Both the position numbers and the translations under genes were made by a program. Source: a virus. Taken from it: a stretch of 23,756 bases of DNA. The notes under the pieces were generated by a model. The model was not told the DNA's origin, made no database searches, and saw only the letters and a program-made list of their open reading frames with translations. How positions within the stretch are numbered: position 1 is the first letter of the stretch; every line of letters begins with the position of its first letter. Shown in pieces: positions 1,935 to 21,993 of this stretch. The stretch covers positions 1 to 23,756 of the IMG/VR virus record IMGVR_UViG_3300025450_000125. One strand, 5' to 3'.

Positions 1935-1960
1935 CCCCCGCTCAGTGCGGGGGTTTTTTT
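1935..1960 (+). terminator. intrinsic terminator of the plus-strand unit
   Basis: A perfect 7-bp GC-rich stem (CCCCCGC / GCGGGGG) with loop TCAGT is followed directly by seven T residues. It lies 34 bp after the stop of the 64-aa gene. On the minus strand there is no T tract after the hairpin, so it should act mainly on plus-strand transcription. The stop codon of the minus-strand 2109-aa gene (1959-1961) overlaps the T tract, so the two converging units share this boundary. The hairpin could still protect the 3' end of the late mRNA. Confidence 0.9.
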
Positions 1961-4900
1961 ATTTGGGAGAAGCGTTCTTGAGCGTTGGTATCAGGTACGG
2001 AGCTAATTTTTTATCTATCTGCATTCCGTGGAACGATAACCCTCTTTTCTCCACAGCGGCTTTGATAGAATTTGTTATAGTGTCCGGCGTAATAATATAT
2101 TTCTCTGCGGGATACCTATTATTAAACTGTCGTATCTGATTAATTGCTTTTTGGATATCTTTGTTATCTTTATTTTTTTCAAGCAGCGCTGTGTCTAATT
2201 GCTTAAGCACATCCGTGCGTTCTCTGGAGGCTTTTATCTCTTCTTTCATTAGATTGAAGTTAGCCTCTTGGCGACTAGATAATCGAGTGCTTTGAAATCC
2301 TAGCGTTTGAGCAGCTAATGTAATTGGAGTTATTTCGTCTTTTTTTAGTACCGGCAATCCTGTTTTGGTTGTAGCACCCTCTTCTCTTAGTCTCTCAGCA
2401 GTTACTGCACCACGGAAGAACGCAGGTACGAGCTTCTCTAACCCACGCAATATCTGCCCGTTATGGAAATCATCTAATGCCCCTACCATATTAATACCAG
2501 TTGATACACCGGGGCCTAAGTTAGCTAGTACATAGTTCTGTACGGTCTCTAAAGCAGTTTTGCCTTCCTTTGCACCACGGAACCATAAACCATCAAAAGA
2601 GGTACGTGAACCGATGTTCATGTCAGTCAGCTCAGAAATTGCACCTTTTTCTAATATTTTAGCTAGTGTATGCTCTTTACCGTCCAGCCCAGTAATTGTA
2701 GGTGTACCGAACATTTTTGGTAAGAATTCATAACGGAACCGTAAATCGGAATTATCAGCGGTTAACGGATTCTTGCGGCGGCGCTTTTTCTTTTCTTCTT
2801 CGTCGCCAAACATATCCATAGCGGCATCAATTGCTGCACATATTGTGCTGTACAGAGGCATACCAACTAACCCGTGGAACATACCACCCATAACCAGTAC
2901 CCCACTTAAGCGATGGAGAGCTGGCAGCATTTCCTTAGGATTAGTCACATTCATTGCGTGGTACATATTACGTACAAAGAACGAAGTCATGTTAACTGCA
3001 TACATCTTAAACTGCCCAAGCGTTTTACCTACAAAGTTCTGCATATAGCGAGGACGGTTAAAGTTGTCGTAACGGCCTAGCAATTCTTGAGTGGTATCAA
3101 TAGCTTTTTGTACCGACGCTTCGAAGTCTTTGGTCTTTTCGTATTCAAGCTCGAACGTCATCATGTAAGTCATTTCACGGCTAAGACGTTCAGCTCCGTT
3201 AAACAAAGCAGACATAACACGGGCAGTCTTTTGTAGTGCTGCACCGGCAACGCTCTCTGCAATATTAGACGGAGTACGGTTACGATTTGTAAGGATAGAC
3301 GTATTAGTAGTTGTAGTAAGCCCTCTATCCACCGCCTCTTGGAATGCACGTTGGGCTAGATCGCTACCCCTAACAATCGAAGAAGAACCTATTGAAGGTG
3401 ATGTATGGGTAACGTCTCCGTTAGCTTCTACTTTGTTAACCCCAACGGCTTTAAATATGTTAGCGTACTTGGCAAACTTCTTAGCGGCAGCGCCATAACC
3501 ATACTGTTGGTTTAGTGTTGGCATAACCATGATGGGGACAGACGCAAGTTGCGTAGCTGCAGACGCTGCGCTGGTAAGAAGCCAGTAGTAAGCAAATTGG
3601 TTTATCTTCGTTGTTAAGAAGCCCTGCTCAGGAGGGTTCATTTCTTGCATAGCTCTTTGCTTGAACTCGTTTATAAACAGCTCATATTTAGCACGAGCTT
3701 GTGCGGGCATGCCTTCTAGGTTGTCACGACCGCTTTGCAATTCATTTTCTAGGTCAGAACCATAACGCAACTTAGCAGCTTGGTTAGCCATACGGGTTGC
3801 AGATACTTTAAAGTTGCGCAACACATCCGAACTGAAACCAGTTACTTTGTCAGCATGTAAGAATTGCTTACGGAAGCTCTTTTCTGGAAGAGTCATCAAG
3901 TACGTCTGGTATAACTGATCCTTAAGAGCTTCTTTATCAAAGTCCGTCTTTGCAGTAGCCGCATCGATTGCAGAGAACATATCAGTTAGCATCTTACTCT
4001 CGCCACTGAATTCGTTGCGCAATGCGCCCATGTTGTCGCCAGCTTTAAATATATCGCTCTTATTGTCTACGCCCAAATCTCTAGCACGTTTGAGCAAGAA
4101 TAAGTTACGTGCAGTACCAGATTCGAATAAATAAAATTCTCTACCTTTAGGTCCGTTCACCCGCAACCAGTAGTTGCCTTCACGCATAAATGGAAAGTAC
4201 TCACCCTTTTTATCCGCCTCTTCTTGCATTTGGCGAACCGCTGCCATCAACTTTCCTTTTGGCGTATTAGGGTCATTTATACTGCCTTCAATTTGCATCG
4301 AGTTGATTCTACGGTCAAGCAGATGTCTAGTTAATTCGTAGTTGTCTTTGTAGAACTTACGAACCATTTTATAAATATCATGTCCACCCTTAAACTCACC
4401 TAGCGCATCCCATTTTTTATAGACCTCTTGGATACCTGCAGTGCGAGTATCTATTTCTGATTGGGTAGCTTTACGGGTAGCTTCGTTTATGTTGGGGTCA
4501 TTTAGAGTAGCCCTAAGGGAATTCAGTTGGCTATCGTTCTTAATAGCGTCATTAGCATTCGCATGTTCTACAGGACTTATACCTACTAGACGAGCTAAGT
4601 GCATGGCATCAGCAAGAGTATTCTTAGCATTTTTAGCACTACGAATAAACTTGCTTATTTGTTCAGCCTTCTTAGAAAAAGCCGCCCGCATATTGATACG
4701 CATTGCAGACATATGTTGGGTTGTATCGTCTATGCGTTTAAGCGCAGGTATCTTATCCCCCATCCAACGCACGATATCCACCGATTGCATAGCACCTAAT
4801 AACTTAGTTATAAACGCATTACCCATAGCAGGGAGGCTGGCGTTCATTAAGTCATTAAAATCTTGTGCATTACGTGAACGTGCAAGGCCACCTAATAGCC

Positions 4901-7900
4901 CCGTCATTTCCGTAGCGTCTTTTGATAGCTCCAGCTTTTTTAGGTCCGCATCTACTTTTTCTTGAACCTTATCAAGTTTTTCTGCCGCACCTTCTACAGC
5001 CTTGACATCTTTAGGCGTATACTGCATCAGCCCTTCGGTAACAAGCATCAAGTCTTGGAAAGCGTTAACACTTCCTTCGGGCATACCGAATGCGTTAGCT
5101 AGCGCACGTACAAATTTAGTAAACAGATTCTTAAAGAACCCCGGCGCACCTTGCTTTGCTTTACCTTGGGTATTAGCTAAGAACTCTTGCACATCAGGCT
5201 CAGTCATACCATAGGCAACAAATTCTTTTAAGTCGTCTAATATGCCTACGCCGCCTTTTTTGCGAGCAGAGAACAATCTATCTAGTGCAGCAGGGACTTC
5301 TTGCCCCATCATTTTGGCTTCTGTATACGCTGCTGCCGTCTCATCGACGATATCTTTAAGCTCAGTTATTAACCGTTCAAGGCGTGGGTCTACTGGGAGT
5401 CCTTCTGCAACTGCTCTTTCGTATTCTGCAATCTGCTCAATGGTTGCACCATGCACGGCTTCATGCAGGAATGTTTTAAAGGTTAACCCGCCACCACCTT
5501 CAAACTTATCGCCCCGTAAAATCAAATACTTTTTGCCATCTTCGGTCGTAAAGTAAATACCGTTGGCGTCTTTAAACTTGTCTTTTAAACTTTGTCCGTC
5601 ACGCAGGGAGATATCAGGTAAGTCTGCTTCTGATTGTGCAACTATGTAATTGACATCTTTTAGGAATGGTTTTAGGCGTTGGGCAAGAGTCCTTTCAAAA
5701 GCATTCCCGGTCTTTACTATATGATCTATAGCAGCCGTTGCGGTCTTATAAGCTGCAAGCCTAGCGCCCCTTACCAAATCTACTAACTGCGCAGCAAGAG
5801 AAACTCTATCTGATAATTTGGCGTTAGGTGCAAGTTCTTTTGCTTTCCGTTTACGTGGTGGATTATCAATCCTATGCTGTTCAAGAACCGTCGGGATATT
5901 TGCTTTTTTCTTAGCAGCGATACGATCCTTGGCTAGGGCTACCTCTTCTGGGGTTACATTATTTGCAGTCAGTGCAGCGGCAGCTTTTTCTTTTGCCGCT
6001 TTGTGAGGTCTTTGTGTAAGCTCAACCAAACCTTCAACCAGATTGTTACGTTGGGTTTTATTTGTTTTATCCCAAGAAGCAGCTTGCTCAAGGCTTTCGG
6101 CCTCTTCTAGATTGTTTGGTTCAACCGCAAGGTCACTTATTAGCTTGTCTGCGTATCGGCTTTCTGCATTAGCAGTCTTTGCTTGTGCTTTTTGTAACGG
6201 CGTTCTTGCTTTCTTTTCTACAACTGGCTCAGCTATAGCTGATTGAAATTTAGTACCGTTACCAAATGCCCAAACATCCCCACTTTTTTTGGCATATCCT
6301 TGCGCCATACTTGAAGACATACGTGGTCCAGTATCCATTACATTTCTGGCTACTAATGCTTCTCCGGGTTTTAAGGTACGTGCTTTTTTATCGAATTCAA
6401 ATTTATCAAATAACCCATTCCTATCTAATTGAAACTCAGTTACGTTGTCAACTTTAGCGTACATGGGGTATACAACCCCACCAGTTACCCCAAATTCTGC
6501 GGTAGGGTCTCCTGCATAAGACGAAGCTATGTATGGGTTGTCTGAAGTAAAAATTGCATATCCGGGTCTCCCAGAAAACGGGTCAACTGCCCCACCTACT
6601 AACCCCCGATATAAAACTAATGGTTTACCCTCACTATCTACAGCTTTACTATTACCAAACCATTTTTTAGTTGATGGGTTTATTGCGGTTTCTGTGGCGG
6701 GAGCAACTTCTTCTTGTTGCGCATTTTTTGGTGTAACTTGGGCTACTGGCGGGGTAGCCGCAACTTCTTCTGGTGCGGTTGGTATTGCAGTTACTGGAGT
6801 TACCTCAGTTGTGGTTTCAGCTTTTTCTAGTTTAGCTTCCGCCTTCTTTAGCTCTTGTCTAGCCTTGTTAACTTCAACCTGCGCTTCTTTCTTAATTTCA
6901 GGCGTATCTGCTTCTACAAGCTTTATTTCAGCTTCTCTTAACTGCGCAGCTTTTGCATCTACTTCGGATACTTCTGGTGCTAATGCACTTGGCTGAAGTC
7001 CTTCTCCTTCATCAACCCGTCCAGCAGGTCCGCTAACGCTAGCCAATCGTTCAGGACTAAGTGCCTCAGGTCCTCCGGCGGTGGTTCCTCCATCGCTAGG
7101 CAATGAAACGCCTTGCTCACTTGTTCCGGTGTCAACTCTAGTAGGTGGTCTTCCATTTAACTCCCCTTCTAATCTTTGACGAGCCATCGCTACGGCGGTA
7201 TCTTTAGGGATGCCATATTCCTGCTCAAGCTCAACAGCTAAATCTAGTACTGCCTTTTCATCTACTTTAACAGGAGTTTGTGGAATTGTCTGTCCTGCAG
7301 CTTGTGCTTGCCCTTGTTTCTCTGCCGTATCAAGGGGCATTGTAGGTATTGGTGTACCTGCAGCAGATTCTACCTTTGGTCCGGGCGGTGGCGCTGCTTG
7401 TTGCCCTTGCTGGGTAAATACTTCCTTACCCCCTTGAACTGTTGCACCTAAACCACCCCCAACAATACCAGCTTCCAACGCTTGCAATGCTAGCTCTTTT
7501 GGGTCTACACCCTTTTCTGTACCAACCGTTTCAGCTAATCCAGATGCAACTTCTTCGGCAGCTTCCGTACCAAACTGTATACCGGCCTCTTTAGCTATTC
7601 TCGTACCAGCAGTAGCCCCGGTTACGTGTTGTCCTTTTAACAACCCTTTAGTAGCAAATCTTTCTAGGTAAGTCTCAACCACGGCTCCGGCAGCGGAAGT
7701 GGCAACGTCGGCAACTGTTGCATCCTCTAAAGATTTTTTGTCGTTCTGGAGGCGGTTATTTAGTATTTCATTAGTACGGGCTGTTATATACGCAGGGCTA
7801 GCCACCATAGCAGCTGCCATATCTGGAGAGGAAGATATGATCCTTTCAGCAATAAACGGAACTAACAGAAGAGGTTTACCGGGCAATTCCCCCAATGTTG

Positions 7901-8288
7901 TGGTAGGCGCATAGCCGATATCTTTACCCCAATCTTTTAGGGACTTTGCAAAATCAAACAAAGGTTGTAATTGTTGTTTATTCTTTAAATCTTCTTCAGA
8001 TACACCTGATATAGGAAGTTTAGATTCAAGATAGTCCCCAACATTTTCAGCTACTCTTGCTACACCTTCTACACCTTCACCAGCTAGACTAGCAGCTCTT
8101 GATGCTAGACCCATAAAAGGGTTTTGTGTTTTAGGCCCTTGTTGCGCACTGGGTTCTTCTACCTTAGGGATAACACCAAGCTCCTCAGGTGTGTATTCTT
8201 TTTGTTTGGTAGTTATACCAAGTTCTTCAGGGGTATATTCTTTTTGAGCTTGTATACCAAGTTCTTGTGGGGTAAATTCTTGTACCAT
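1959..8288 (-). CDS. giant polyvalent virion protein with ART and zincin domains
   Basis: This 2109-residue protein is probably packaged in the virion and delivered into the host. I chose the ATG at 8288 because AAGGGG (8299-8294) sits just before it; two in-frame GTG codons at 8294 and 8291 are less well placed. Features in order: three repeats of the [FY]TP[QE]ELG type (residues 4-39); a coiled coil (about 450-490); an ART-PolyVal-like ADP-ribosyltransferase domain opening at W543 (WFGNSKAVD, then LVLYRG and FTSDNP), closing near DVWAFGNGTKFQSA; and a zincin motif HEAVH at 942-946 with a possible third ligand E1022 in KEFVAYG. Then follow long helical regions. From about 1545 to 1930 there are hydrophobic stretches (YYWLLTSAASAATQL; LVMGGMFHGLVGMPLYS), a basic run EEEKKKRRRK near 1838 and a tail resembling large-polyvalent-protein-associated domains such as LPD38. 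Polyvalent proteins of phages and conjugative elements carry such mixtures (Iyer and colleagues). Targets are unknown. It is the last gene of the late unit, starting 9 bp after the previous stop. Confidence 0.85.
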   Translation of the reverse strand: MVQEFTPQELGIQAQKEYTPEELGITTKQKEYTPEELGVIPKVEEPSAQQGPKTQNPFMGLASRAASLAGEGVEGVARVAENVGDYLESKLPISGVSEEDLKNKQQLQPLFDFAKSLKDWGKDIGYAPTTTLGELPGKPLLLVPFIAERIISSSPDMAAAMVASPAYITARTNEILNNRLQNDKKSLEDATVADVATSAAGAVVETYLERFATKGLLKGQHVTGATAGTRIAKEAGIQFGTEAAEEVASGLAETVGTEKGVDPKELALQALEAGIVGGGLGATVQGGKEVFTQQGQQAAPPPGPKVESAAGTPIPTMPLDTAEKQGQAQAAGQTIPQTPVKVDEKAVLDLAVELEQEYGIPKDTAVAMARQRLEGELNGRPPTRVDTGTSEQGVSLPSDGGTTAGGPEALSPERLASVSGPAGRVDEGEGLQPSALAPEVSEVDAKAAQLREAEIKLVEADTPEIKKEAQVEVNKARQELKKAEAKLEKAETTTEVTPVTAIPTAPEEVAATPPVAQVTPKNAQQEEVAPATETAINPSTKKWFGNSKAVDSEGKPLVLYRGLVGGAVDPFSGRPGYAIFTSDNPYIASSYAGDPTAEFGVTGGVVYPMYAKVDNVTEFQLDRNGLFDKFEFDKKARTLKPGEALVARNVMDTGPRMSSSMAQGYAKKSGDVWAFGNGTKFQSAIAEPVVEKKARTPLQKAQAKTANAESRYADKLISDLAVEPNNLEEAESLEQAASWDKTNKTQRNNLVEGLVELTQRPHKAAKEKAAAALTANNVTPEEVALAKDRIAAKKKANIPTVLEQHRIDNPPRKRKAKELAPNAKLSDRVSLAAQLVDLVRGARLAAYKTATAAIDHIVKTGNAFERTLAQRLKPFLKDVNYIVAQSEADLPDISLRDGQSLKDKFKDANGIYFTTEDGKKYLILRGDKFEGGGGLTFKTFLHEAVHGATIEQIAEYERAVAEGLPVDPRLERLITELKDIVDETAAAYTEAKMMGQEVPAALDRLFSARKKGGVGILDDLKEFVAYGMTEPDVQEFLANTQGKAKQGAPGFFKNLFTKFVRALANAFGMPEGSVNAFQDLMLVTEGLMQYTPKDVKAVEGAAEKLDKVQEKVDADLKKLELSKDATEMTGLLGGLARSRNAQDFNDLMNASLPAMGNAFITKLLGAMQSVDIVRWMGDKIPALKRIDDTTQHMSAMRINMRAAFSKKAEQISKFIRSAKNAKNTLADAMHLARLVGISPVEHANANDAIKNDSQLNSLRATLNDPNINEATRKATQSEIDTRTAGIQEVYKKWDALGEFKGGHDIYKMVRKFYKDNYELTRHLLDRRINSMQIEGSINDPNTPKGKLMAAVRQMQEEADKKGEYFPFMREGNYWLRVNGPKGREFYLFESGTARNLFLLKRARDLGVDNKSDIFKAGDNMGALRNEFSGESKMLTDMFSAIDAATAKTDFDKEALKDQLYQTYLMTLPEKSFRKQFLHADKVTGFSSDVLRNFKVSATRMANQAAKLRYGSDLENELQSGRDNLEGMPAQARAKYELFINEFKQRAMQEMNPPEQGFLTTKINQFAYYWLLTSAASAATQLASVPIMVMPTLNQQYGYGAAAKKFAKYANIFKAVGVNKVEANGDVTHTSPSIGSSSIVRGSDLAQRAFQEAVDRGLTTTTNTSILTNRNRTPSNIAESVAGAALQKTARVMSALFNGAERLSREMTYMMTFELEYEKTKDFEASVQKAIDTTQELLGRYDNFNRPRYMQNFVGKTLGQFKMYAVNMTSFFVRNMYHAMNVTNPKEMLPALHRLSGVLVMGGMFHGLVGMPLYSTICAAIDAAMDMFGDEEEKKKRRRKNPLTADNSDLRFRYEFLPKMFGTPTITGLDGKEHTLAKILEKGAISELTDMNIGSRTSFDGLWFRGAKEGKTALETVQNYVLANLGPGVSTGINMVGALDDFHNGQILRGLEKLVPAFFRGAVTAERLREEGATTKTGLPVLKKDEITPITLAAQTLGFQSTRLSSRQEANFNLMKEEIKASRERTDVLKQLDTALLEKNKDNKDIQKAINQIRQFNNRYPAEKYIITPDTITNSIKAAVEKRGLSFHGMQIDKKLAPYLIPTLKNASPK
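8168..8279 (-). repeat. three YTPEELG protein repeats at the N-terminus
   Basis: Residues 4-39 of the polyvalent protein hold EFTPQELGI, EYTPEELGI and EYTPEELGV, spaced 13 and 14 residues apart. At DNA level the copies differ mostly at third codon positions (for example CCTGAAGAACTTGGT versus CCTGAGGAGCTTGGT). This suggests the peptide itself is kept by selection and is not just a recent DNA duplication. A short linear binding or packaging signal is a plausible reading. Confidence 0.75.
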
Positions 8289-8297
8289 CACCACCCC

Positions 8298-10793
8298 TTA
8301 TTGTTGCACGTATTTGCCGTTTGACTGCAATATATATGTTACACCGTCTTTAATAAATGTAGGGGGTAGCCCGGCTGTTTTTTTGGATTGATCTTCCGCT
8401 GGTTTATTTTCCTGCTTTTGCTTTTTCCATGCTTCATTTGCTTCCCCAGTAACTTTATCAACTTGATCCGGGTCAGAAGCCAAAGGAAAGATACCACGAT
8501 TTTCTAAATAAGACTTTACAAATTTTTGTCGAGCTAATTCTTCTGCCGTGTCTGCTCTATGTTCAGAACCGTAAATACTTGGGTGGGCAGCTCTAGATGC
8601 TTCCGACGTTGCCACAGCTATTTGTTGAGGGGTTAATTCTTTACCGCCGTTTTCAGCTTTCGCTTTTTCTAATTGCGCTTTAAGCTGTATTTGGAACTCA
8701 GTATTATTTTTATTATATTCTGCGAGTGCCATAGCAGACTGGGTATGTTCTTTAGCCGCACCCATTGTAGCACCAGCATGGATTTGAGCTGATTTAATAG
8801 CAGCTTCCGCAGCGATTCTAGAACCAAGAGCTTTCTCGAGACGATCCAATTCTTTGTTGTAGTCTTCGTTAGCATTCTTAACGATATCGGCTTGGGCTTT
8901 ATAGCTCATATTACCAACTTCAAACTGAGCCTTAGCAATTTCCATCTGTTGACGTTGTTGTTCCTTAACGTCTTGCATTGCCCCCTGCACCGCAGGTTCA
9001 GCACCTTTACCGATATTAACCGCAGCATATGGCGATTGACCACCTAAAATACCTAATCCTGCCTGAAGAAACCGCATAGCAGATTGTTTTTCTGCATCAC
9101 CTGCACCAGCCTGCGTAAATTTTTCTAGCCTATTAAGATAGTCTTGTCCTGCAGTGTATTCGGGCATTACAGATTTTTGTTCTTGTATCCGTTCTTGCAA
9201 AGTCTTGCTTGGTTGAATTGCAGCTTCATCCTTAGACATATCTTTAACTTGATCGCCTTCAGCAAACGCAACGATTCCACCACCAGCCATATTATTCATG
9301 GAAGTAGCAGGAGCAGCGCCCAGTCCGGGGTTACGCATTTGTTGACGAAAGTCCATCTCACTTTGCGCAGCCTGTGCAGTCTGTGGGTCGTTAAGTTTAG
9401 GGTTAGCTTTCAAAGCAAGCTGCTGGTCGTCCAATCTACCAAGCATTGCATCTAGTTTAGCTGCAGGAACCCCACTAGCTATACCACCCGAAGCCATCTT
9501 TTTAACTTCAAAATCATCCGTTAAACCACCTTTCCTACCCATTAACTTAGCAGCACCTAAGCCAGCAACGCCCAGACCAGTTGCAGTGGATGCAAGACTT
9601 GGAGCGGCTTGATACATACTCGTAGCAGCCTGAGATAACGGTAAACCCTGATACAGACCCTGCATGAAGCTGAGCTGTTTGTATGGGTAGTTAAGCTGGT
9701 CAAGGTAATTCTGGTACTGTGTAGTGAGACCTTGTTGTTGCAGAGCTTGCTGTTGAGTACCCGCCGCCAACATACCCTGATTGATCGCTTGTTGTTGTCC
9801 AAACTGTTCTTGACCCAGATTACCAAGCGTACTAGCTGCTTGGCCAGAAGTATTAAGTCCTTGTAGGCCATACTGCCCTGCATTCGTTGCGGCATTAACA
9901 CCGGTAAGACCTTGAGCAGTACCCGCAAGTTGTGCATTAACTCCCTGCAAGCCCATACCTGCACCAGCAATACCTGTGTTATAAGCGGTATTAGCAGCGT
10001 TAAGGCCAGCCAATCCAGTTTGTGCGCCCTGCATGCCGAGGGTAGCGGCTTGTTGCATATTTTGGTTAGCGGTATTGTATGCTTGGTTATACGCATTACC
10101 GACTAGCTGATTCTGCGCCAACATGCGGTTTTGTTCATTTAGCCCTTGCATTAAACCTTCACGGCTACCACCAAACGCTCCGGATTTAGTAGCCGCGCCT
10201 TGTTCGTATGCATCTTGAATGCCGTACTGTTGGTTAAGCAGTTGTTGAGCAGGAGCTAGAGTTGCTTGAAGATATGGGTTCATGTATGCCTGAACCGCAG
10301 CAGGGTTAGTAGCGTTTTGCCCATAAGACATACCCGCATTCATACCCGCCATACCCGTGCCAATATCAGCACCAGATAATCCAGCAGCTTGTTGCCCGTA
10401 GCCAAAACCTTGAGCGCCGTAAAGTCCACCACCTTGTACACCAATATTTGCGCCTTGCTGACCGTAACCTAATGCAGCGTTTTGTAATTGCCCGGAAGTA
10501 TCATAGGCTTGCAGTCCGCTTTGCCCTACTTGGTATGCAAGATTTGAAGCGTCTGTAACTTGGGGTGCGACTTGTTGGTTAGCAATATTTTGGAATGCTT
10601 GGGTTTGCATGGGCGTAAAGCCCGCAACTTGCTGCCCTTGATACGCTTGGTAAGGGTTTTGATTAATATCAGTTAGCGCAGCGCCTTGACCTAATGTGTT
10701 CTCAACATATGGCTGTGCATATGAAGGGATAGATACGTTATTTACCGTAGTGCTAGTTGGTTGTGCGCTTCCGCTGCTGCTGCCGCCGCTCAT
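8298..10793 (-). CDS. internal/ejection-type virion protein, 831 aa, low complexity
   Basis: An 831-residue protein of no firmly known function. The N-terminal half (to about 420) is rich in Gly, Gln, Ala and Asn with loose repeats. GYGQQ blocks lie at about 105-160, and units like GLTGVNAATNAGQY and GLQGLNTSG at about 255-318. A Gly/Ala-rich hydrophobic stretch near 405-425 (GLGVAGLGAAKLMG) could cross a membrane. Two GGI motifs follow: MASGGIASG (about 432) and MAGGGIVAFAEGD (about 501). The C-terminal third is charged and helical, probably coiled coil (EKALGSRIAAEAAIKSAQIHA region), ending in VTYILQSNGKYVQQ. The start ATG overlaps the GNAT stop as ATGA. Its place between a smaller GGI-bearing protein and the giant polyvalent protein suggests an internal protein like T7 gp15 in position. 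No sequence homology to gp15 is claimed. Confidence 0.7.
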   Translation of the reverse strand: MSGGSSSGSAQPTSTTVNNVSIPSYAQPYVENTLGQGAALTDINQNPYQAYQGQQVAGFTPMQTQAFQNIANQQVAPQVTDASNLAYQVGQSGLQAYDTSGQLQNAALGYGQQGANIGVQGGGLYGAQGFGYGQQAAGLSGADIGTGMAGMNAGMSYGQNATNPAAVQAYMNPYLQATLAPAQQLLNQQYGIQDAYEQGAATKSGAFGGSREGLMQGLNEQNRMLAQNQLVGNAYNQAYNTANQNMQQAATLGMQGAQTGLAGLNAANTAYNTGIAGAGMGLQGVNAQLAGTAQGLTGVNAATNAGQYGLQGLNTSGQAASTLGNLGQEQFGQQQAINQGMLAAGTQQQALQQQGLTTQYQNYLDQLNYPYKQLSFMQGLYQGLPLSQAATSMYQAAPSLASTATGLGVAGLGAAKLMGRKGGLTDDFEVKKMASGGIASGVPAAKLDAMLGRLDDQQLALKANPKLNDPQTAQAAQSEMDFRQQMRNPGLGAAPATSMNNMAGGGIVAFAEGDQVKDMSKDEAAIQPSKTLQERIQEQKSVMPEYTAGQDYLNRLEKFTQAGAGDAEKQSAMRFLQAGLGILGGQSPYAAVNIGKGAEPAVQGAMQDVKEQQRQQMEIAKAQFEVGNMSYKAQADIVKNANEDYNKELDRLEKALGSRIAAEAAIKSAQIHAGATMGAAKEHTQSAMALAEYNKNNTEFQIQLKAQLEKAKAENGGKELTPQQIAVATSEASRAAHPSIYGSEHRADTAEELARQKFVKSYLENRGIFPLASDPDQVDKVTGEANEAWKKQKQENKPAEDQSKKTAGLPPTFIKDGVTYILQSNGKYVQQ

Positions 10794-11197
10794 AGTCGAA
10801 TCTCCATTAACGTGGCTTTTTTGCTAAGCCCAATTTTTTCATACAATCTTGCGGCGGCGTCTCTTGCATATACTTGCACACGGGTAGCCCCCATATCTTT
10901 TGCGATTGCACAAACCTGTTTAAAAACTTCTTTGGTTACTACAAATTTTCCACCTAAGCTAGTAATAACCGCTGTTCTATCGTTAGCACCATTACCCACA
11001 GATACCGTGGCTACCCCACGTAACTGCCTAGCTTCATCAATTGCAGCTAAAAGATGCCAAGTACCGCTGTTGACATACACTTTTAACTGGTCAATATTAT
11101 AGTCATCCGTATGCTCTAAACCCCTAGCTAACATGGGTTCGACCATTTCCCACGCTTGGGGGATAAACTTAGGGTCTATAACTTGTACGGTTATCAT
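10790..11197 (-). CDS. GNAT-family N-acetyltransferase, 135 aa
   Basis: A small GCN5-related acetyltransferase fold is suggested. The order is an N-terminal substrate-side half (IPQAWEMVEPMLARGLEHTDDYN), a strand with LLAAIDEARQLRGVATVSV, then VTKEVFKQVCAIAKDMGATRVQVYAR as the helix-strand pair near the acetyl-CoA site. It ends with AAARLYEKIGLSKKATLMEIRL, the usual GNAT C-terminal Tyr and Gly layout. The classic Q/RxxGxG/A acetyl-CoA loop is not obvious, so it may be divergent. It shares 4-bp ATGA overlaps with both neighbours, which ties its translation to two virion proteins. It may acetylate a virion protein or a host target; the substrate cannot be read from sequence. Confidence 0.75.
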   Translation of the reverse strand: MITVQVIDPKFIPQAWEMVEPMLARGLEHTDDYNIDQLKVYVNSGTWHLLAAIDEARQLRGVATVSVGNGANDRTAVITSLGGKFVVTKEVFKQVCAIAKDMGATRVQVYARDAAARLYEKIGLSKKATLMEIRL

Positions 11198-12819
11198 TTG
11201 GGTAAGTGCTTATAAGCCTTCGAATCAACTGCTACTTTATCTTTACCTATCGATTTTTTACGGCTTTGCTGTACTTTATTCATCATTGCATATAAGCGCT
11301 TTGCACCAGCATCGGTTGATCCATTACCTAGCTCAGATACAATACGTGCGGGGATTACAAATTCACCATCAGCAAGACGTGCAGGTTGATGTTTTCCGAT
11401 CTGCGCAGGGATATCATCACTCACCCCATCACCCGGACCTTTTAATAATCTACCGCCATCAGAGTACGAACCTAGATTATATACGTCTCCACCCTTGGCG
11501 TAGTTATTTGTCGTTCCTTGCATTGGGTAAGCTGGCCCCATACTAACTGAAGGATGCGCACCCATAATGCCTGTATCTGTAGGATGTTGACCGCCTGTGC
11601 CGTCATCTGGACTTGGGTAGTAACCGCCAATACCGCCACCCATTGCATACTTTTCAGCTTTCATTATGCCGCCTTTAGCTGCGCCACCTCCATCATACGA
11701 CCCATAATTAGTTACGGGCGCAGGGGTTTGTTGCACCGGAGTTTGTTGCGCAGCGGCTTGTGCGGCTGCTTGTTGTGCGGCTGCTTGTTGTATAGCTTGT
11801 TGTTGCGCTATGGCTTGCTGTTGTTGAGCCACGGCAGCTTGTTGCGCTGCGGACACCATTTGTGGACTACGTGGTGTCATTACGCCTAACTGCGGCTGAT
11901 TTACATATTCTGCTTGTGCCCGCTGCGCCAGCATGTTGTTATAGTCTTGCACCGCTTGAGAAGGCGTGTTAACCGGTGTAGTATATTTTGAAGTACTACC
12001 ACCATCAGCCATTGCAACAATACCGCCATTAGCACCAGAAGGGATACCGTAACCAACCGCATTTACTGGGGTGCCCGGGGTCATTGTCTGAGAACTAAAA
12101 TATGGTTGCCCCACTCCTCCAAACTGCGGGTTAACAGTTTTAGAATATGAGAAGGGTCGTATATAAGATGTGGGTATTGCATTACTTGGCGTACCAAAGC
12201 GCTTATTGTCCGCAGATAATAAGGCATACGCTCCTAACCCCCCTGCCCCAACAATACCAGCTTTTTGCCAGTTATTCAGGCTGCTCCAAAACCCTTTATC
12301 AGCATTAGTTTTTGTTACGTTATCTAAGTACTTCGAGGGCATGTTCTCTGCAGGTGTTCCACCAGCAAAAGGGTTTGTGTTGTCTACGTTTGGTTGTCCC
12401 GTGTATTGATCTTGTAAGACTTGGGTTTTATCACTTACACCAGCATCACCACCTTCATTGGTAGTCCCACCGCCACTGGTATCAACATAATTTTCATACC
12501 CAGTAGTAGTTGGCACAGTGCTTGTATCAGTTAGAAAATTACCAGCGTTACTCATTCCTGAAGTAAAACCTTCTGGCAATGCACCTGTATCCATAAACGC
12601 CTGAGCGCCAGCATCAGACAACGTACCAGCCACGTCACCAAGTGCACCACCATCCATACCCCCAGTAGCTGCAGATAGCAAACCACCAATAGGGCTACCG
12701 CCTTTAACAGTACTTTCAGCTGCACTTTCTAAGGCAATAGGGACAGCAAGTTCAGGAGCTACGATACCTAGCCCAATCTTACCGACTGATTCAAGAATGT
12801 TTCCGCCGCCACCGCTCAT
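11194..12819 (-). CDS. internal/ejection-type virion protein with GGI motifs, 541 aa
   Basis: The 541-residue protein opens MSGGGGNILESVG, much like the start of the 831-aa protein. It has Gly/Ala hydrophobic stretches (near 10-35, and AGIVGAGGLGAYALL near 190-205), a Gln/Ala tract (about 320-358), and several GGI-type motifs: NGGIVAMADGG (about 264-273), AKGGIMKAEKYAMGGGI (about 379-396) and YAKGGDVYNL (about 440). The C-terminal module at about 480-515 (LADGEFVIPARIVSELGNGS, then an AGAKRLYAMM helix) is, from memory, a recurring ending of phage structural proteins of unknown function. A good ribosome site, AAAGGAT, lies before the ATG. Position and the following gene order suggest a small internal protein comparable in place to T7 gp14. 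Function is inferred only. Confidence 0.7.
   Translation of the reverse strand: MSGGGGNILESVGKIGLGIVAPELAVPIALESAAESTVKGGSPIGGLLSAATGGMDGGALGDVAGTLSDAGAQAFMDTGALPEGFTSGMSNAGNFLTDTSTVPTTTGYENYVDTSGGGTTNEGGDAGVSDKTQVLQDQYTGQPNVDNTNPFAGGTPAENMPSKYLDNVTKTNADKGFWSSLNNWQKAGIVGAGGLGAYALLSADNKRFGTPSNAIPTSYIRPFSYSKTVNPQFGGVGQPYFSSQTMTPGTPVNAVGYGIPSGANGGIVAMADGGSTSKYTTPVNTPSQAVQDYNNMLAQRAQAEYVNQPQLGVMTPRSPQMVSAAQQAAVAQQQQAIAQQQAIQQAAAQQAAAQAAAQQTPVQQTPAPVTNYGSYDGGGAAKGGIMKAEKYAMGGGIGGYYPSPDDGTGGQHPTDTGIMGAHPSVSMGPAYPMQGTTNNYAKGGDVYNLGSYSDGGRLLKGPGDGVSDDIPAQIGKHQPARLADGEFVIPARIVSELGNGSTDAGAKRLYAMMNKVQQSRKKSIGKDKVAVDSKAYKHLPK
11761..11790. repeat. 15-bp perfect tandem duplication in a Gln/Ala tract
   Basis: TGCGGCTGCTTGTTG occurs twice head to tail (11761-11775 and 11776-11790) within a longer Gln/Ala-coding tract spanning about 11745-11860 of the 541-aa gene. 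The unit is five codons (a QQAAA-like block), so copy-number change by slippage would keep the frame. Confidence 0.85.
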
Positions 12820-12849: not shown

Positions 12850-13494
12850 TCATGGATACAGCGCAGATACAAAAGTTGCTGTAGCAATAACCGATGGTAT
12901 TGCCGGTACTGGAGATACCGCCGTCTGTGCCAAAATGTTTACACTTGTGTTGCTTACGCTCCACATGAACTCTAAATAGTCCCCTGCATTCATAGCCTGT
13001 ACAAAATTCCAAGCTGCAATTAGTTGAGCGCTACTTCCCTGCACTGCTACTTTACTGGCTGAGTTGGGTATATCAGCACCGTTTACCCGTACCCAAATAT
13101 AAATATACTGTGTTGAACCTGTAGAACTATTCAGTTGTGCAGAAAACTGAAAATTATATATGCCCGCTACCGCACAGATTATTCTAGAAGTGTGAGTAGG
13201 ATCAACACTTACTTGGTTAGAAGTGGCCGTGCTATTAAGCCGCATTGCATAGGCAGTGTTAGTTGCTACAGCAGTTTGGGTGGTTGTATCGTAAAAAGAC
13301 CCATTAGGAAACCGTAAATAACTACCGCCTGTATTAGACGTAAAGGGCTGAGCAAAGTTATCTATTTGGTTGAAATATATACGCAGGGCGTTATTAAGCT
13401 GGTCTGTGTAATCTTTATCGTATTCTATCGGTGCTAACAATAAGTTAGGCGATTTTGGTGGGCGCAGCGGTAGATTTTTAAGATCAGTTGTCAT
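12850..13494 (-). CDS. C1q/TNF-like jelly-roll tail fibre protein, 214 aa
   Basis: A short N-terminal attachment-like part (APIEYDKDYTDQLNNALRI then YFNQIDNFAQP) is typical of small phage tail proteins. It is followed by a predicted beta-rich domain from about residue 75 to the end. The strands read ICAVAGIYNFQFSAQLN, YIYIWVRVNGADIP and AGDYLEFMWSVS. This order, including the AGIYNF strand and the late GDYLEF strand, fits C1q/TNF-like trimeric jelly rolls used as receptor-binding tips. The ATG at 13494 overlaps the stop of the HNH/AP2 gene as TAATG. An in-frame TTG at 13500 is rejected as start. An AAGG lies about 9 bases upstream. A role in host attachment is inferred from fold and neighbourhood. 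Confidence 0.75.
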   Translation of the reverse strand: MTTDLKNLPLRPPKSPNLLLAPIEYDKDYTDQLNNALRIYFNQIDNFAQPFTSNTGGSYLRFPNGSFYDTTTQTAVATNTAYAMRLNSTATSNQVSVDPTHTSRIICAVAGIYNFQFSAQLNSSTGSTQYIYIWVRVNGADIPNSASKVAVQGSSAQLIAAWNFVQAMNAGDYLEFMWSVSNTSVNILAQTAVSPVPAIPSVIATATFVSALYP

Positions 13495-14105
13495 TACCAA
13501 TACCTTGCTTCAAGTTCTTTACGGGCTGCTGCGGCTTCTTCTACGGTACTACAGATTGACGAATAATATTTCTTTTTTTTAACAGTTATCGTTGCGTAAT
13601 ATTTTCCATTATGGAACAAAACTCCAGTTACACCGGTTTTGCTTGCTTTTGGAATGCGAATATTTCTAGCTTGCGTTCTTGGTGATGCCCAGCGGCAGTT
13701 GTCTGGCTCGTAATTTCCATATGTGTCAATACGATCAAGCGTTTCATCGCCTTGTGGCTCACCCATGTCAACAGCAAAATTGCGATAATCCATCCATGCG
13801 GGACAAACAGTCACCCCTTTACCTCCATAGTTAGGGTAGTCTTTATCTGTTGGAATTGTGCATCGTCTAATCATTGCTCGCCACGTATTATAAGAACCTT
13901 TGCCTGTTCCACCATGTTTGTAATTTCCTTTGTCACAACCACATGATATCGTATTGCCTGTTACCAAGCTACCAGATACTACTATTGATTCGTTACCACA
14001 TTCACACTTACACCGCCATAACACTTTCTTTAATCGGTCACGCCCGGCTTGTTCAATCACAGTTAACTTTCCAAACACCTGCCCAGTACGGTATACGAGT
14101 TTCAT
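13494..14105 (-). CDS. HNH/AP2-type homing endonuclease-like protein, 203 aa
   Basis: A 203-residue DNA-binding protein of the free-standing phage homing endonuclease type. The N-terminus has a zinc-ribbon-like set of cysteines (WRCKCECG at 30-37, SCGC at 54-57). Next comes YNTWRAMIRRC, then YGGKGVTVCPAW, and the family signature LDRIDTYGNYEPDNCRWAS, which resembles a His-Asn-His nuclease core with H64 or nearby residues as candidates. The C-terminus carries an AP2/ERF-like DNA-binding domain (GVTGVLFHNGKYYATITVK then TVEEAAAARKELEARYW). Such genes sit between structural genes of phages and copy themselves into unoccupied sites. The start ATG at 14105 follows AAGGAG by five bases, but this ribosome site is inside a hairpin (see separate entry). 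It may also be a regulator without nuclease activity. Confidence 0.8.
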   Translation of the reverse strand: MKLVYRTGQVFGKLTVIEQAGRDRLKKVLWRCKCECGNESIVVSGSLVTGNTISCGCDKGNYKHGGTGKGSYNTWRAMIRRCTIPTDKDYPNYGGKGVTVCPAWMDYRNFAVDMGEPQGDETLDRIDTYGNYEPDNCRWASPRTQARNIRIPKASKTGVTGVLFHNGKYYATITVKKKKYYSSICSTVEEAAAARKELEARYW

Positions 14106-14161: not shown

Positions 14162-16273
14162 TCACCTACGTCCATCATTCCTGATATCAATACGGGGCGT
14201 ACCTAACTGCCAAGCTACACCTAGCGAGTTAGACTCAATCCTAAAGCTCATTTGCCGCCCACGCAACCGGGTATAGACCTGCCCATCGAATTGCTGAATG
14301 TCATAAGTCCCACGAGTGCTGTAATTGTTATAACTTTGGACGACAGGATTATCCGCAGCGCCGTAAGGGGTACCCGAGTTTTCCCGAGGTTTAACCGTCA
14401 TAGTTACAAATGGCTGGTCTACGTTAGAACCGTTAAAGTTCACATCAGGCAGTATGCGCCACACAAACCCAAAGTTATGACCATCACCAATATCAAAATC
14501 AGAAGACTGAACGTAAGCATCGATTGGTACTGGGGTTAACCCTGATACATCATCTACAGCAGCTTCGTGGTAAAGCAAACGGCTGTTATAGTCTGCAGCA
14601 ATAGGATAAGGACGTGTGCCGCTATCAGACCAAGCCGTGCGCCCAAGAGTGCCGTAATACCAGACTTTATCTAGGTAGTTATAAATAACATATTTGTTAA
14701 CTTGGTTAGAGTTAGCCGAGCAGTAGAACCACCATACCTCGTTGTAACCCTCGTTGCCGCCAGCAAATACTTGGAACGATTGGCTTGTATTAATGTCATC
14801 AAAAATATACTGACGCAGCGAGCAAGGCAGCGTCTCAACACGACCTGAATAGGTATAGAACTTTTCTTGCCCCATCCAGTAAGTCACGTTGTTAATCGTA
14901 ATCATTGAGTTAGGCGACATGACGGAAATGTTGTCCATCAAGATGTTAAAGCCCCAGACATAAGGCGCACCTAAGTACTGCATGGAATACAAGCAGGAAT
15001 CAGTCCAAACCAGAATTTCCTGACGAGTCGCACGAGCGCCCATGATATATGAACCATTAGTTAGACGGAATTCACCTGATTGGTTTGTAACATCAGGAAC
15101 CCATTGAAAAGCATTTGCTTGGTCTGACCAACGTACTAGCATCGGATCAAATGTCGTATTAGCGTTTAACGGATCGTAAGAGTTAGCGCCAAATGCAATA
15201 GCAAATTCTTGAATAGCGGAAGCAATAATCTGATTAGTTCTGTTAGGTACAAATTGCCCTTGATACCCGTTATAAGTAGCTAAACTCTGCAAAGATTGTG
15301 CACGGGAAGATGGACCTAGCTGAGCTTGCCAATAATAAATAGCACCGCCACGTTGAGCAAGAATTAAGTCCTGACCAAAGTTATCGTTCGTCCAAAGCAA
15401 GAGCTGCTCACCAATCGTACTCGTAGGTGACGCCGAACCCCAACCACCAGCACCCCAAGCACCTGCACCCCAACCAGTACCGATAACGTAAACGTCTAGA
15501 CCCGTGTTAATTTGATAAGTAGCAACGACTGCTGAACCGCCACCTGAAGTAGCACTTGTAGAGAACACACCAGTAATATTGATGGTATAAGTGTTGATTG
15601 AAACGACGTTAAATACTTGTTGTTCAATATTTAATTCAGCGGCAGTAAATCCCCCAAAAGGTCCCGTAGCTCCTGAGAAAGTGACGAAATCGTTTTGGGT
15701 TGTGCCATTGCTTGCATCAGTGACCAAAATGGTTGAGCATCCCACGCTATCGCCTGTAGAGTGAGCAGTTGCCGTAGTCCCGTTATATCCACGAACAAGT
15801 CCTGTAAGAGTGCTGCCAGAGACAGCGTTGTAGTAGATTTGCTCTGAACCGATCTTAATAACGCCCGGTGAATTGGGAAATGATGCTGCTGAAGTAAGGG
15901 TTAGAACAATTGCCGTTGCATTAAGATTTGCTGCTAGTGTGCTGTATGCAGTTGAAAACGGGTTAGCCGACATCGGGTTAGTTACTTTGCGAATAGGCGT
16001 AATATCGTAGTACGTGTTGCCTTCTTCTATGTAGTACTTTAAGTTCGTGCCTACGCCCAAGTAGTTATTGTTACCGCTTAAATCAACCCAGTTCCATAAC
16101 GAACGACATACACCTTGATACTGCGGATCAGCTACACGCACCCAACCGCCGATCTTTTCAGGAAAGCCAGAACGAAAACGAATCTTGTCGCAATCATACC
16201 AACCACCTTCGTTAGCATAATCAGTGCCTTCTCGGTTTACACCGGGGCGAAAGGTTAGTTTCTGTAACGGCAT
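14162..16273 (-). CDS. tail structural protein (hub/propeller-like), 703 aa
   Basis: The N-terminus (LQKLTFRPGVNREGTDY, then GGWYDCDKIRFRSGFPEKIGGW at about 23-44) is a recurring signature of large podovirus tail or head-tail structural proteins; I recall it as 'putative structural/tail protein'. Many short beta strands with Trp-rich turns follow (GTGWGAGAWGAGGWG near 265; MLVRWSDQANAFQWVPD; WFYCSANSNQ; KVWYYGTLGR). These suit a beta-propeller or hub comparable to P22 gp10-like stabilisation proteins, although sequence homology to gp10 is not claimed. LTGLVRGYNGTTATAHSTGD near 165 resembles a small inserted beta module. An AAAGGAT site precedes the ATG. It begins 10 bp after the endolysin stop. 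Virion role is confident, exact position in the tail is not. Confidence 0.75.
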   Translation of the reverse strand: MPLQKLTFRPGVNREGTDYANEGGWYDCDKIRFRSGFPEKIGGWVRVADPQYQGVCRSLWNWVDLSGNNNYLGVGTNLKYYIEEGNTYYDITPIRKVTNPMSANPFSTAYSTLAANLNATAIVLTLTSAASFPNSPGVIKIGSEQIYYNAVSGSTLTGLVRGYNGTTATAHSTGDSVGCSTILVTDASNGTTQNDFVTFSGATGPFGGFTAAELNIEQQVFNVVSINTYTINITGVFSTSATSGGGSAVVATYQINTGLDVYVIGTGWGAGAWGAGGWGSASPTSTIGEQLLLWTNDNFGQDLILAQRGGAIYYWQAQLGPSSRAQSLQSLATYNGYQGQFVPNRTNQIIASAIQEFAIAFGANSYDPLNANTTFDPMLVRWSDQANAFQWVPDVTNQSGEFRLTNGSYIMGARATRQEILVWTDSCLYSMQYLGAPYVWGFNILMDNISVMSPNSMITINNVTYWMGQEKFYTYSGRVETLPCSLRQYIFDDINTSQSFQVFAGGNEGYNEVWWFYCSANSNQVNKYVIYNYLDKVWYYGTLGRTAWSDSGTRPYPIAADYNSRLLYHEAAVDDVSGLTPVPIDAYVQSSDFDIGDGHNFGFVWRILPDVNFNGSNVDQPFVTMTVKPRENSGTPYGAADNPVVQSYNNYSTRGTYDIQQFDGQVYTRLRGRQMSFRIESNSLGVAWQLGTPRIDIRNDGRR

Positions 16274-19575: not shown

Positions 19576-20520
19576 TTACGCCGTGTATGTGCCTGATGAG
19601 GTGAACTTAACAATCGTATTACTGCCACTCGTAGTAACTGTAGGTGAACCTGTGGTGATGCCAGAATAGTTTGCTGTTGGCACGGAAAGAATAACGACTC
19701 CAGAACCTCCAGCAGCACCGTTTGCACCCAGTCCACTACCACCTCCTCCGCCACCTGTATTAGCAGTACCAGCAGTTCCTACAGCGCTATTCGTTCCAGT
19801 ACCCGAACCGCCTCCACCTGTTCCACCAGCACCAGCAGTTGCGCCATATCCACCGCCACCACCACCGCCGCCATAATAAACAGATGACCCTGTGATTGAA
19901 GACGCTAATCCAGTTCCACCAGCACCAGCAGTGCTTCCAATGGCTAAATTACCGGGTGCACCTGCTCCACCACCTCCACCGCCAACACCAAAACCATCAG
20001 TTCCACCGGATGAACTTCCTGCGCCACCTTGGTTCCCCTGCCCGGTAGTTCCTTGACCGGGTATTTGTTCACCCATGTCATCACGTTTTCTACCACCGCC
20101 GCCACCTGACCCACCGGCAATTTGGTAATAACCACCGCCATAAGCTATCAAGTTTATGTTGTATGCGTTTGATGTCGTGATGCTTGAGTTACTCCCATTA
20201 CTAGAAGCTCCACTCGCTGCCCCAGCACCTACCGTGACCGTGTAAGTCGTACCTGTAGATAAAACCAACGTACCCGGTAAAACTCCACCAGCTCCACCAC
20301 CGCCGCCTATGCTTTGCCCCGGACCACCCCCGCCAACAATAAGATAGCTAGCTGAATAAATCAAACTGGTGGAAGAGACCCAAGTACTTGACCCAACATA
20401 AACCTCAAGCTGCCCCAAAGTAGTATTCCAACCCTGTTGACCCACGACAGGCGAAGCCGGACGGTTAGCTGTTGTCCAACTAGGAGGAGTAGATGCTGCG
20501 ACGTTATTTGCCTGAGTCAT
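19576..20520 (-). CDS. glycine-rich adhesin-like tail protein, 314 aa
   Basis: The N-terminal module (NRPASPVVGQQGWNTTLGQL then EVYVGSSTWVSS) resembles the start of the 333-aa paralogue. From about 62 the protein is dominated by Gly runs (VGGGGPGQSIGGGGGAGG; YYGGGGGGGGYG; GGGGGGSG), which in T-even gp38-like adhesins form a polyglycine-II sandwich. The ending SNTIVKFTSSGTYTA is shared with the other glycine-rich proteins here. An unusual charged segment GRKRDDMGEQIPGQG interrupts the glycine region (bases about 20050-20095) and may be an exposed recognition loop. A ribosome site AAGGAA lies before the ATG. A receptor-binding role is inferred. Confidence 0.8.
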   Translation of the reverse strand: MTQANNVAASTPPSWTTANRPASPVVGQQGWNTTLGQLEVYVGSSTWVSSTSLIYSASYLIVGGGGPGQSIGGGGGAGGVLPGTLVLSTGTTYTVTVGAGAASGASSNGSNSSITTSNAYNINLIAYGGGYYQIAGGSGGGGGRKRDDMGEQIPGQGTTGQGNQGGAGSSSGGTDGFGVGGGGGGAGAPGNLAIGSTAGAGGTGLASSITGSSVYYGGGGGGGGYGATAGAGGTGGGGSGTGTNSAVGTAGTANTGGGGGGSGLGANGAAGGSGVVILSVPTANYSGITTGSPTVTTSGSNTIVKFTSSGTYTA

Positions 20521-20529
20521 TTAATTTCC

Positions 20530-21993
20530 TTAAGCATTGTAAGTTCCACTGCTTGTGAATGTATGTATTGTGTAGCCGCCAGAGGATGTAACCGTACCGC
20601 CAGTACCACGCTGTGAGCCGAGGTAGCTGATGATTACGATGCCTGAACCGCCTGCGCCACTGACATAGCTACCACCCGCACCACCACCGCCTCCTCCCGT
20701 GTTAGCAGTTGCATTTGTTCCATTACCAACAGAACCTGCACCACCGCCGCCTAAACCGCCAGTTCCTCCTGTGGTATTACCTGATCCGCCGCCACCACCG
20801 GAATAAGTTACAGCAGTTCCAGAAATAGAGGATGATGCACCTGCTCCGCCATTACCTCCTGTAGTAGCACCGCTACCGTTAGCGCCAACCGCACTTGCGC
20901 CACCACCACCGCCCCCCGCCGGAGCACTAGAACCTCCTGCGTAGCCTTGACCAGAAGTGGCTGTTCCGCCTGCCCCACCTGAAGCACCACCGCCTCCAGA
21001 AGCACCGGAACCACCCGCAGTAGACGAAGATGAGCCTGCTCCATAACCTCCACCAACTGCTGTTGCAATGGTAGATATAACGCTATTGCTTCCTGCGTTT
21101 CCGCTAATGTTTGTAGATACAGCAGCACCACCAGCACCGACTGTGATTGTGTAAGCTGTACCTGATGACAAAGTTGCAGATGAAGTTAATAAACCACCTG
21201 CTCCACCACCACCGCCATAATATGCACCACCTGAACCACCTCCAGCCACAACAAGATAATTAACCGTGTAGCCAGCAGGCTGGGAAAACTGAAGCCAAGA
21301 AGACGTTGTTGTGTCGTACCACTCAGGGTTGCCTGTTGTGCTGTTTAAACGCACTAATCCTCGTTGTCCTGTTGGTCGTTGTGCGGTTGTTCCCACTGGG
21401 AGAAGCATAGCCCCTGTACCAGATCCACCTGTTACATCCAAAAATGCCTGTGATGCTGCACCTGATGCAAGATAAGAAGAGACTACCGATCCAGCCTGAG
21501 CAGGGATAGCGTTTAGTACGGATGAGACATAAAAGCCTACGGTTGTGATAAGGTCGCCAGCGGTAGCACCAACAGCCAGAACCACAGTAGTACCGTTAGT
21601 AGCAGTGAAATCAGCAGACCCAAGCTTAACTCCATTACGATAGACATCAAGAAACCCCGCTACATAAGATGCTGGTGTAAACGTCGTTTGTCCTGCGGTT
21701 GCTGTGAATTCTGTGACTGTCCGGTATGCAGTCGTTGTAATGTTGGATGCTGGAATGCCCAAATACCGAACCGAGATGTTGCCCGTGCCTGTTGGAGGCG
21801 CAGCCGAGAAGGTTAGCGTTGTGCCTGATACCGAATACGTTGTTGGGGCTTGCAATACACCGCTAATCGCAACCAAAACTGCTGCCGAATTAGCAGGGGC
21901 CACAGACATTGTAAAAACAGTAGTCGTGCCATCACCTGTGAATGTATCAGTGATGAATGCCGTTTGGGTAGGACTAGCTCCAATATAGCTCAT
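20530..21993 (-). CDS. glycine-rich adhesin-like tail protein with two beta domains, 487 aa
   Basis: The longest of the glycine-rich set. Residues about 3-80 (SYIGASPTQTAFITDTFTGD, then VFTMSVAPANSAAVLVAISG and a VSGTTLTFSAAPPTGTGNI strand) form a fibre-shaft beta domain common in phages. A related second domain at about 92-160 has EFTATAGQTTFTPASYVAG, FLDVYRNGVKLGSADFTATN and GTTVVLAVGATAGD. A linker TTAQRPTGQRGLVRLNSTTG then NPEWYDTTTSSWLQ corresponds to the N-termini of its shorter paralogues. From about 247 the sequence is polyglycine-rich, then ends SYLGSQRGTGGT and FTSSGTYNA. Its ATG overlaps the stop of the 333-aa gene as ATGA. The beta domains probably attach the glycine-rich tip to the virion. 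Confidence 0.8.
   Translation of the reverse strand: MSYIGASPTQTAFITDTFTGDGTTTVFTMSVAPANSAAVLVAISGVLQAPTTYSVSGTTLTFSAAPPTGTGNISVRYLGIPASNITTTAYRTVTEFTATAGQTTFTPASYVAGFLDVYRNGVKLGSADFTATNGTTVVLAVGATAGDLITTVGFYVSSVLNAIPAQAGSVVSSYLASGAASQAFLDVTGGSGTGAMLLPVGTTAQRPTGQRGLVRLNSTTGNPEWYDTTTSSWLQFSQPAGYTVNYLVVAGGGSGGAYYGGGGGAGGLLTSSATLSSGTAYTITVGAGGAAVSTNISGNAGSNSVISTIATAVGGGYGAGSSSSTAGGSGASGGGGASGGAGGTATSGQGYAGGSSAPAGGGGGGASAVGANGSGATTGGNGGAGASSSISGTAVTYSGGGGGSGNTTGGTGGLGGGGAGSVGNGTNATANTGGGGGGAGGSYVSGAGGSGIVIISYLGSQRGTGGTVTSSGGYTIHTFTSSGTYNA

Follow-up and report, generated by a model that had tools for sequence, protein, structure and literature searches.

A virus record in IMG/VR, IMGVR_UViG_3300025450_000125 (23,756 bases, the whole stretch of DNA analyzed here and called the window below), encodes on its (-) strand a giant open reading frame (ORF) that joins an ADP-ribosyltransferase (ART)-like domain, a zincin domain (HEAVH...EFVAYG), and a C-terminal part that is long, helical, and marked by conserved hydrophobic stretches. 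What would a virus do with such a protein, and do its enzyme-like domains act on the host, on the protein itself, or on neither? A preliminary description made from the letters alone had placed the ORF at positions 1959 to 8288; the ORF does exist, and its end at 8288 corresponds to an ATG. An alternative start is the first GTG at 8294, which gives 8294..1959 on the same strand and 2111 aa. Residue numbers below follow the GTG start, and numbering from the ATG is 2 lower; HEAVH, at 944 to 948, thus becomes 942 to 946, exactly as first described, and EFVAYG becomes 1022 to 1027. We conclude that the giant is probably an ejection protein of the gp16/virion RNA polymerase (vRNAP) type whose cargo can be exchanged, and as such the large member of a podovirus-type gene cassette (Table 1). 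The preliminary description mentioned neither the tandem N-terminal tag nor the LPD39 domain, and it did not link the giant to N4 vRNAP or to an ejection-type cassette.

Table 1. Features of the giant ORF and of the genes adjoining it in the window
Feature	Coordinates	Strand	Details
Giant ORF	1959..8288	(-)	2109 aa from ATG at 8288; putative polyvalent/ejection-type protein
N-terminal tandem tag	8172..8276	(-)	Three copies of [FY]TP[EQ]ELG[IV], spacing 13-14 residues
ART-like domain	6195..6677	(-)	Residues 540-700 (GTG numbering); WFGNSK..LYRG..IFTSDN..GDVWAFG
Zincin domain	5034..5762	(-)	Residues 845-1087; HEAVH 944-948, EFVAYG 1024-1029 (GTG numbering); homolog of domain C1 of N4 vRNAP
LPD39 domain	4287..4805	(-)	Residues 1164-1336; Pfam PF18858, E = 6.1e-08, over gathering score
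Helical C-terminal region (putative carrier)	1962..4997	(-)	Residues 1100-2111; conserved in relatives; hydrophobic near 1555-1590 and 1796-1814
831-aa protein	8298..10793	(-)	Directly upstream of giant; conserved adjoining giant in relatives
135-aa GNAT-like small protein	10790..11197	(-)	Weak Pfam GNAT match, E = 0.12; conserved in some relatives
541-aa cassette protein	11194..12819	(-)	Order conserved in relatives
703-aa virion structural protein	14162..16273	(-)	phrog_3287, E = 7e-67; PDB 9nwi_Y, E = 1.6e-13

The zincin domain and the conserved C-terminal region

The structure model of the zincin domain (pLDDT 86 to 97 in most blocks) contains three strands, a helix bearing HEAVH, and later helices bearing EFVAYG, which is the zincin-type layout of a three-stranded sheet, an HEXXH helix, and a following helix with a glutamate. 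The model matched residues 2124 to 2366 of N4 vRNAP with a Z score of 9.9 (also 9.4), and the domain aligned with C1 of Schitoviridae virion RNA polymerases at an hhalign probability of 97.9% (E = 6e-13). The zincin profile also matched PDB entry 9sfn_G, annotated "Internal virion protein" (E = 2.9e-18). Judged from these profiles and models, the window zincin is a homolog of domain C1 of N4 vRNAP, and the zincin fold first proposed from the HEAVH motif is borne out. HEXXH and EF[VI][AS]YG were present in all 22 of the family members listed, and the H, E, H, and E residues (E1024 included) were invariant across a 21-row alignment.

Relatives of the giant are encoded at 38 viral-contig loci, all of them metagenomic; one scan of bacterial genomes confirmed no close relative. 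Conservation among these relatives covers the zincin and about 1,000 residues after it, and the N-terminal half is variable. The C-terminal region, conserved in a 20-row alignment, also forms the end of the giant proteins of two phages, LASTA and Pavtok, at E about 1e-100; both have HEXXH upstream of it but different N-terminal enzymes, and the Pavtok giant is annotated with methylase, helicase, and lytic transglycosylase. In a Foldseek search of BFVD, a model of moderate confidence (mean pLDDT 72.6) matched polyvalent proteins with E = 4e-52; it also matched Internal virion protein D (E = 3.6e-7), although at the profile level the latter match was weak (probability 18 to 24%). Foldseek against the PDB gave no match below E = 0.001 for either model, and a PDB search with the C-terminal region gave no significant solved match. 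Profile alignment gave no significant sequence match to N4 domain C2, and the two folds may still agree.

Hydrophobic stretches had been noted in this region near residues 1555 to 1580 and 1795 to 1815. They are real, but they are mild: the Kyte-Doolittle 19-aa mean of the window protein reaches its maximum of 1.51 at residues 1796 to 1814 and stays below 1.4 at the first stretch, where some relatives peak just above 1.4.

Automatic annotation of the relatives suggests an antirestriction protein of the DarB kind, and the C-terminal region does match a PHROG labeled "DarB-like antirestriction." However, the labeled match is the C-terminal carrier, for which we detected no homology to P1 DarB or to JC1 gp69, two giants that occur in virions and are labeled "DarB" or "DarB-like," and a Pfam search of the window protein found no methylase or helicase domain. 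We therefore rejected membership in the DarB group, which we consider highly improbable.

Module exchange and the ART-like domain

The N-terminal halves of the relatives that were scanned gave no Pfam ART hit, and the zincin is retained in relatives without a recognizable ART. Two comparisons show directly that modules have been exchanged. The carriers of L010 and L016 are 90 to 92% identical, yet in L010 an additional ART-like stretch of about 180 aa (residues about 1000 to 1180) separates the zincin from the C-terminal part; from the sequences, this difference reflects a module recently gained or lost. In L040, an ART 78 to 80% identical to that of the window sits on a different backbone. 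By eye, the N-terminal half of L002 has a GNAT-like stretch (DRVGAVMLTGIDRQAGGAKGRASGLLKSI...) at the place of the window's ART, with no Pfam hit. Two giants with the zincin also gave weak PepSY (peptidase propeptide) matches in their N-terminal halves (L007, residues 377 to 416, E = 9e-5; L001, residues 506 to 560, E = 0.03), both under the gathering score.

The Pfam ART-PolyVal match of the window domain is sub-threshold (E = 0.004; 18.3 bits versus a cut-off of 31.2). Its first half aligned with ten canonical phage polyvalent ARTs at 42% identity and an hhalign probability of 98.8%, its second half was unaligned in the same comparison, and its model matched solved ARTs at a moderate Z score of about 6. 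These comparisons support an ART-like fold, as the preliminary description had proposed. A joint ART-plus-zincin alignment with the canonical ARTs misplaced their second halves and was set aside. Polyvalent ARTs of the Tox-ART-HYD2 clade have an active site made up of H on strand 1, Y on strand 2, and D on strand 5, according to the survey by Iyer et al. (PMC5512222). In the window domain, the H and Y are replaced by R563 and F582, and the GYDG motif is absent. Given that R and F also occur in two other ART copies, those of L040 and L004, this is a conserved ART variant rather than the product of random decay. Activity of the domain is uncertain, since the H-Y-D signature of the family is missing, and the earlier statement that the protein modifies host proteins is to that extent unsupported.

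T4 Alt, which acts on host RNA polymerase, is the model for a reading in which the zincin, the ART-like domain, or both would act on host proteins after ejection. Both folds are supported, the catalytic zincin residues are invariant, and ART modules are spread among giant phage proteins, all of which is consistent with such a role, but the window ART is without the residues that define polyvalent ARTs, and no substrate is known. We regard a host-directed effector as possible, if somewhat doubtful. It is compatible with an ejection protein, of which it would describe the cargo part.

The preliminary description had also suggested that the chain could release its own domains. In this scenario, the zincin would cleave the protein, either inside the capsid or following entry, and free the ART-like effector. 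The invariance of HEXXH and of the downstream glutamate would fit such processing, as would the long Ala/Pro/Glu-rich or Ala-rich linkers that flank the ART, and P1 DdrB undergoes processing before it is packaged (PMC5512222). However, the same paper describes N4 vRNAP, which has the homologous zincin, as packaged unprocessed, and a 2025 study of the recombinant full-length N4 protein found no evidence of degradation (PMC12633501). The zincin is moreover kept where no ART is recognizable, the ART-like insert of L010 lies on its other side, and no cleavage site was identified. In view of these N4 vRNAP data, we consider self-cleavage unlikely and rejected it as the main mechanism; the suggestion is without direct support. 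Nor would it amount to a new kind of delivery system, as had been anticipated, since Iyer et al. had already proposed in 2017 that the zincins of polyvalent proteins, ART-plus-zincin fusions included, bring about release by autoproteolysis (PMC5512222). It is more likely that the zincin is a conserved carrier domain, possibly catalytic on some substrate, than that it is a scissor freeing the ART.

The gene cassette and the N-terminal tags

The giant gene is the last of a late cassette whose products are 703, 541, 135, 831, and 2109 aa long, and the order 703-541-135-831-giant is the same in several relatives. Only 9 bases separate the stop of the 831-aa gene from the giant's ATG. The 831-aa protein has a weak match to a DNA ejection protein family (phrog_4287, E = 6e-4), which together with position suggests that the smaller cassette genes may encode ejection proteins. 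Among the virion genes lies a 203-aa ORF (13494-14105) that by eye has an HNH/AP2-like look and is possibly a homing endonuclease, and 19576-22991 encodes three neighboring glycine-rich proteins that are alike in composition and probably tail associated.

A giant gene placed after smaller genes, here 135-831-giant in conserved order, is the arrangement of the T7 gp16/vRNAP type, and the giant's position would be equivalent to that of T7 gp16 and of the N4 and DEV vRNAPs. From this position and from the homology to N4 vRNAP and 9sfn, we infer that the giant is very probably a virion protein that is ejected, in agreement with the polyvalent-type virion protein of the preliminary description. As an ejection protein, it would have a conserved carrier, composed of the zincin and the helical C-terminal region, that takes it into the virion. 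After adsorption the carrier would bring the protein through the envelope channel, where contact with the inner membrane may be made by the mild hydrophobic stretches. Cargo that can be exchanged would make up the N-terminal half: an R-type ART-like domain in the window giant, methylase-helicase and transglycosylase domains elsewhere. ART-like modules can also follow the zincin. Finally, we propose that the tandem tag at the N-terminus acts as a short address that directs loading or ejection.

The self-similarity score of the window tag exceeded that of every internal window and of 100 of 100 shuffles, and N-terminal self-similarity at a shuffle P of ≤0.02 was found in 14 of 39 non-redundant large proteins from the fetched loci. 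New in this analysis is that orthologs start with differing short tags, often in two or three tandem copies: across the window giant and L001, L002, L010, L020, L025, L026, and L031, the N-termini bear TPEELG, FSFEEA, NPFAQFV, FVPFTGKLD, FVPLEEANK, FTSFTP, SETP, and WTPPSDA. The position of such tags is strictly N-terminal. When viral contigs were scanned for tandem NPFDQF to check the position without bias, all 59 hits (L080 to L138) were N-terminal, lying no more than 38 codons from the upstream in-frame stop, a measure that does not depend on the start chosen. All 13 hits of a single-copy tag, IPNVGxVNFPD, were N-terminal as well, and several of these came from contigs that the family set already included; these statistics hinge on the chosen patterns, and the NPFDQF pattern had some codons fixed. 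The NPFDQF-tagged bodies long enough to compare, 55 in number, fell into 24 clusters, between which no similarity was detected at 1e-5. One of these tagged proteins, L100, is a giant that has a vRNAP-type match as well as ddrB-ParB, ART-PolyVal, GNAT, and LPD38 domains. The window's own tag had no phage match by tblastn, none with one codon-restricted tandem pattern (which misses other codons), and no copy on neighboring genes in the flanks examined.

Given that a reporter enters the capsid when it carries no more than the N-terminal 30 residues of P1 DarB (PMC9024508), the tandem tags are candidate loading tags; most other tagged proteins examined are without a named function, and a loading role is for that reason something that we infer. 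Literature searches, which mostly covered journals other than subscription titles, found NPFDQF in no phage paper and only P1/T4-type precedents for capsid-targeting tags. We tentatively propose, as an idea that may hold, that tailed phages use general N-terminal address tags to load or eject unrelated cargo and that the window giant carries one. The tag types, often present in two or three copies, would be interchangeable and would include [FY]TP[EQ]ELG, NPFDQFD, FVPFTGKLD, WTPPSDAV, IPNVGxVNFPD, and others. If such tags were shown to direct loading, the choice of cargo would be explained and injected proteins could be predicted from sequence.

Comparison with known systems

By its sequence, the window giant is one of the polyvalent phage proteins described by Iyer et al. 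in 2017, a class that conjugative elements also encode (PMC5512222). It shares with them a large multidomain build, an ART-PolyVal-like domain with a zincin, an LPD39 domain (here over the gathering score), and a late-gene context, in this case behind a virion structural gene and within a conserved cassette. It differs in having R and F for H and Y in the ART, and the portions of that survey consulted do not mention a tandem N-terminal tag.

The ejected vRNAP of N4, gp50, is ordered NTD-RNAP-C1 (HExxH)-C2, the last being large and helical (PMC12633501; PDB 9pnr and 9pnt). Its C1, with HELVH at 2228 to 2232, is homologous to the window zincin in sequence and fold, a large helical C-terminal part follows in both, and in both the giant gene lies behind smaller ejection-protein genes, putatively so in the window. 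In contrast to gp50, the window giant has no RNA polymerase domain that we found, its N-terminal half holds the ART-like domain, and its C-terminal part is not alignable to C2. In phage DEV, the small gp73, gp72, and the vRNAP gp71 are co-transcribed ejection proteins equivalent to T7 gp14, gp15, and gp16 (PMC10925440). T7 gp16 and the Internal virion protein D of Zobellviridae resemble the window giant in cassette position. The C-terminal model matches Internal virion protein D by Foldseek, whereas homology at the profile level is weak. The 1337-aa protein 9sfn_G is homologous in the zincin region, including LHEAVHAAT and KELVAWGLT, but the match is confined to that region. The capsid-targeting sequences of P1 DarB and T4 IPIII are likewise short N-terminal signals on injected proteins (PMC9024508), but we saw no sequence similarity between them and the candidate tandem tags.

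Linking the polyvalent giants to the structure of N4 vRNAP provides a concrete carrier-plus-cargo model, in which the same zincin domain accompanies a polymerase in N4 and other modules in the window giant and its relatives. The model makes it possible to test what the conserved HExxH domain does in proteins that are ejected.
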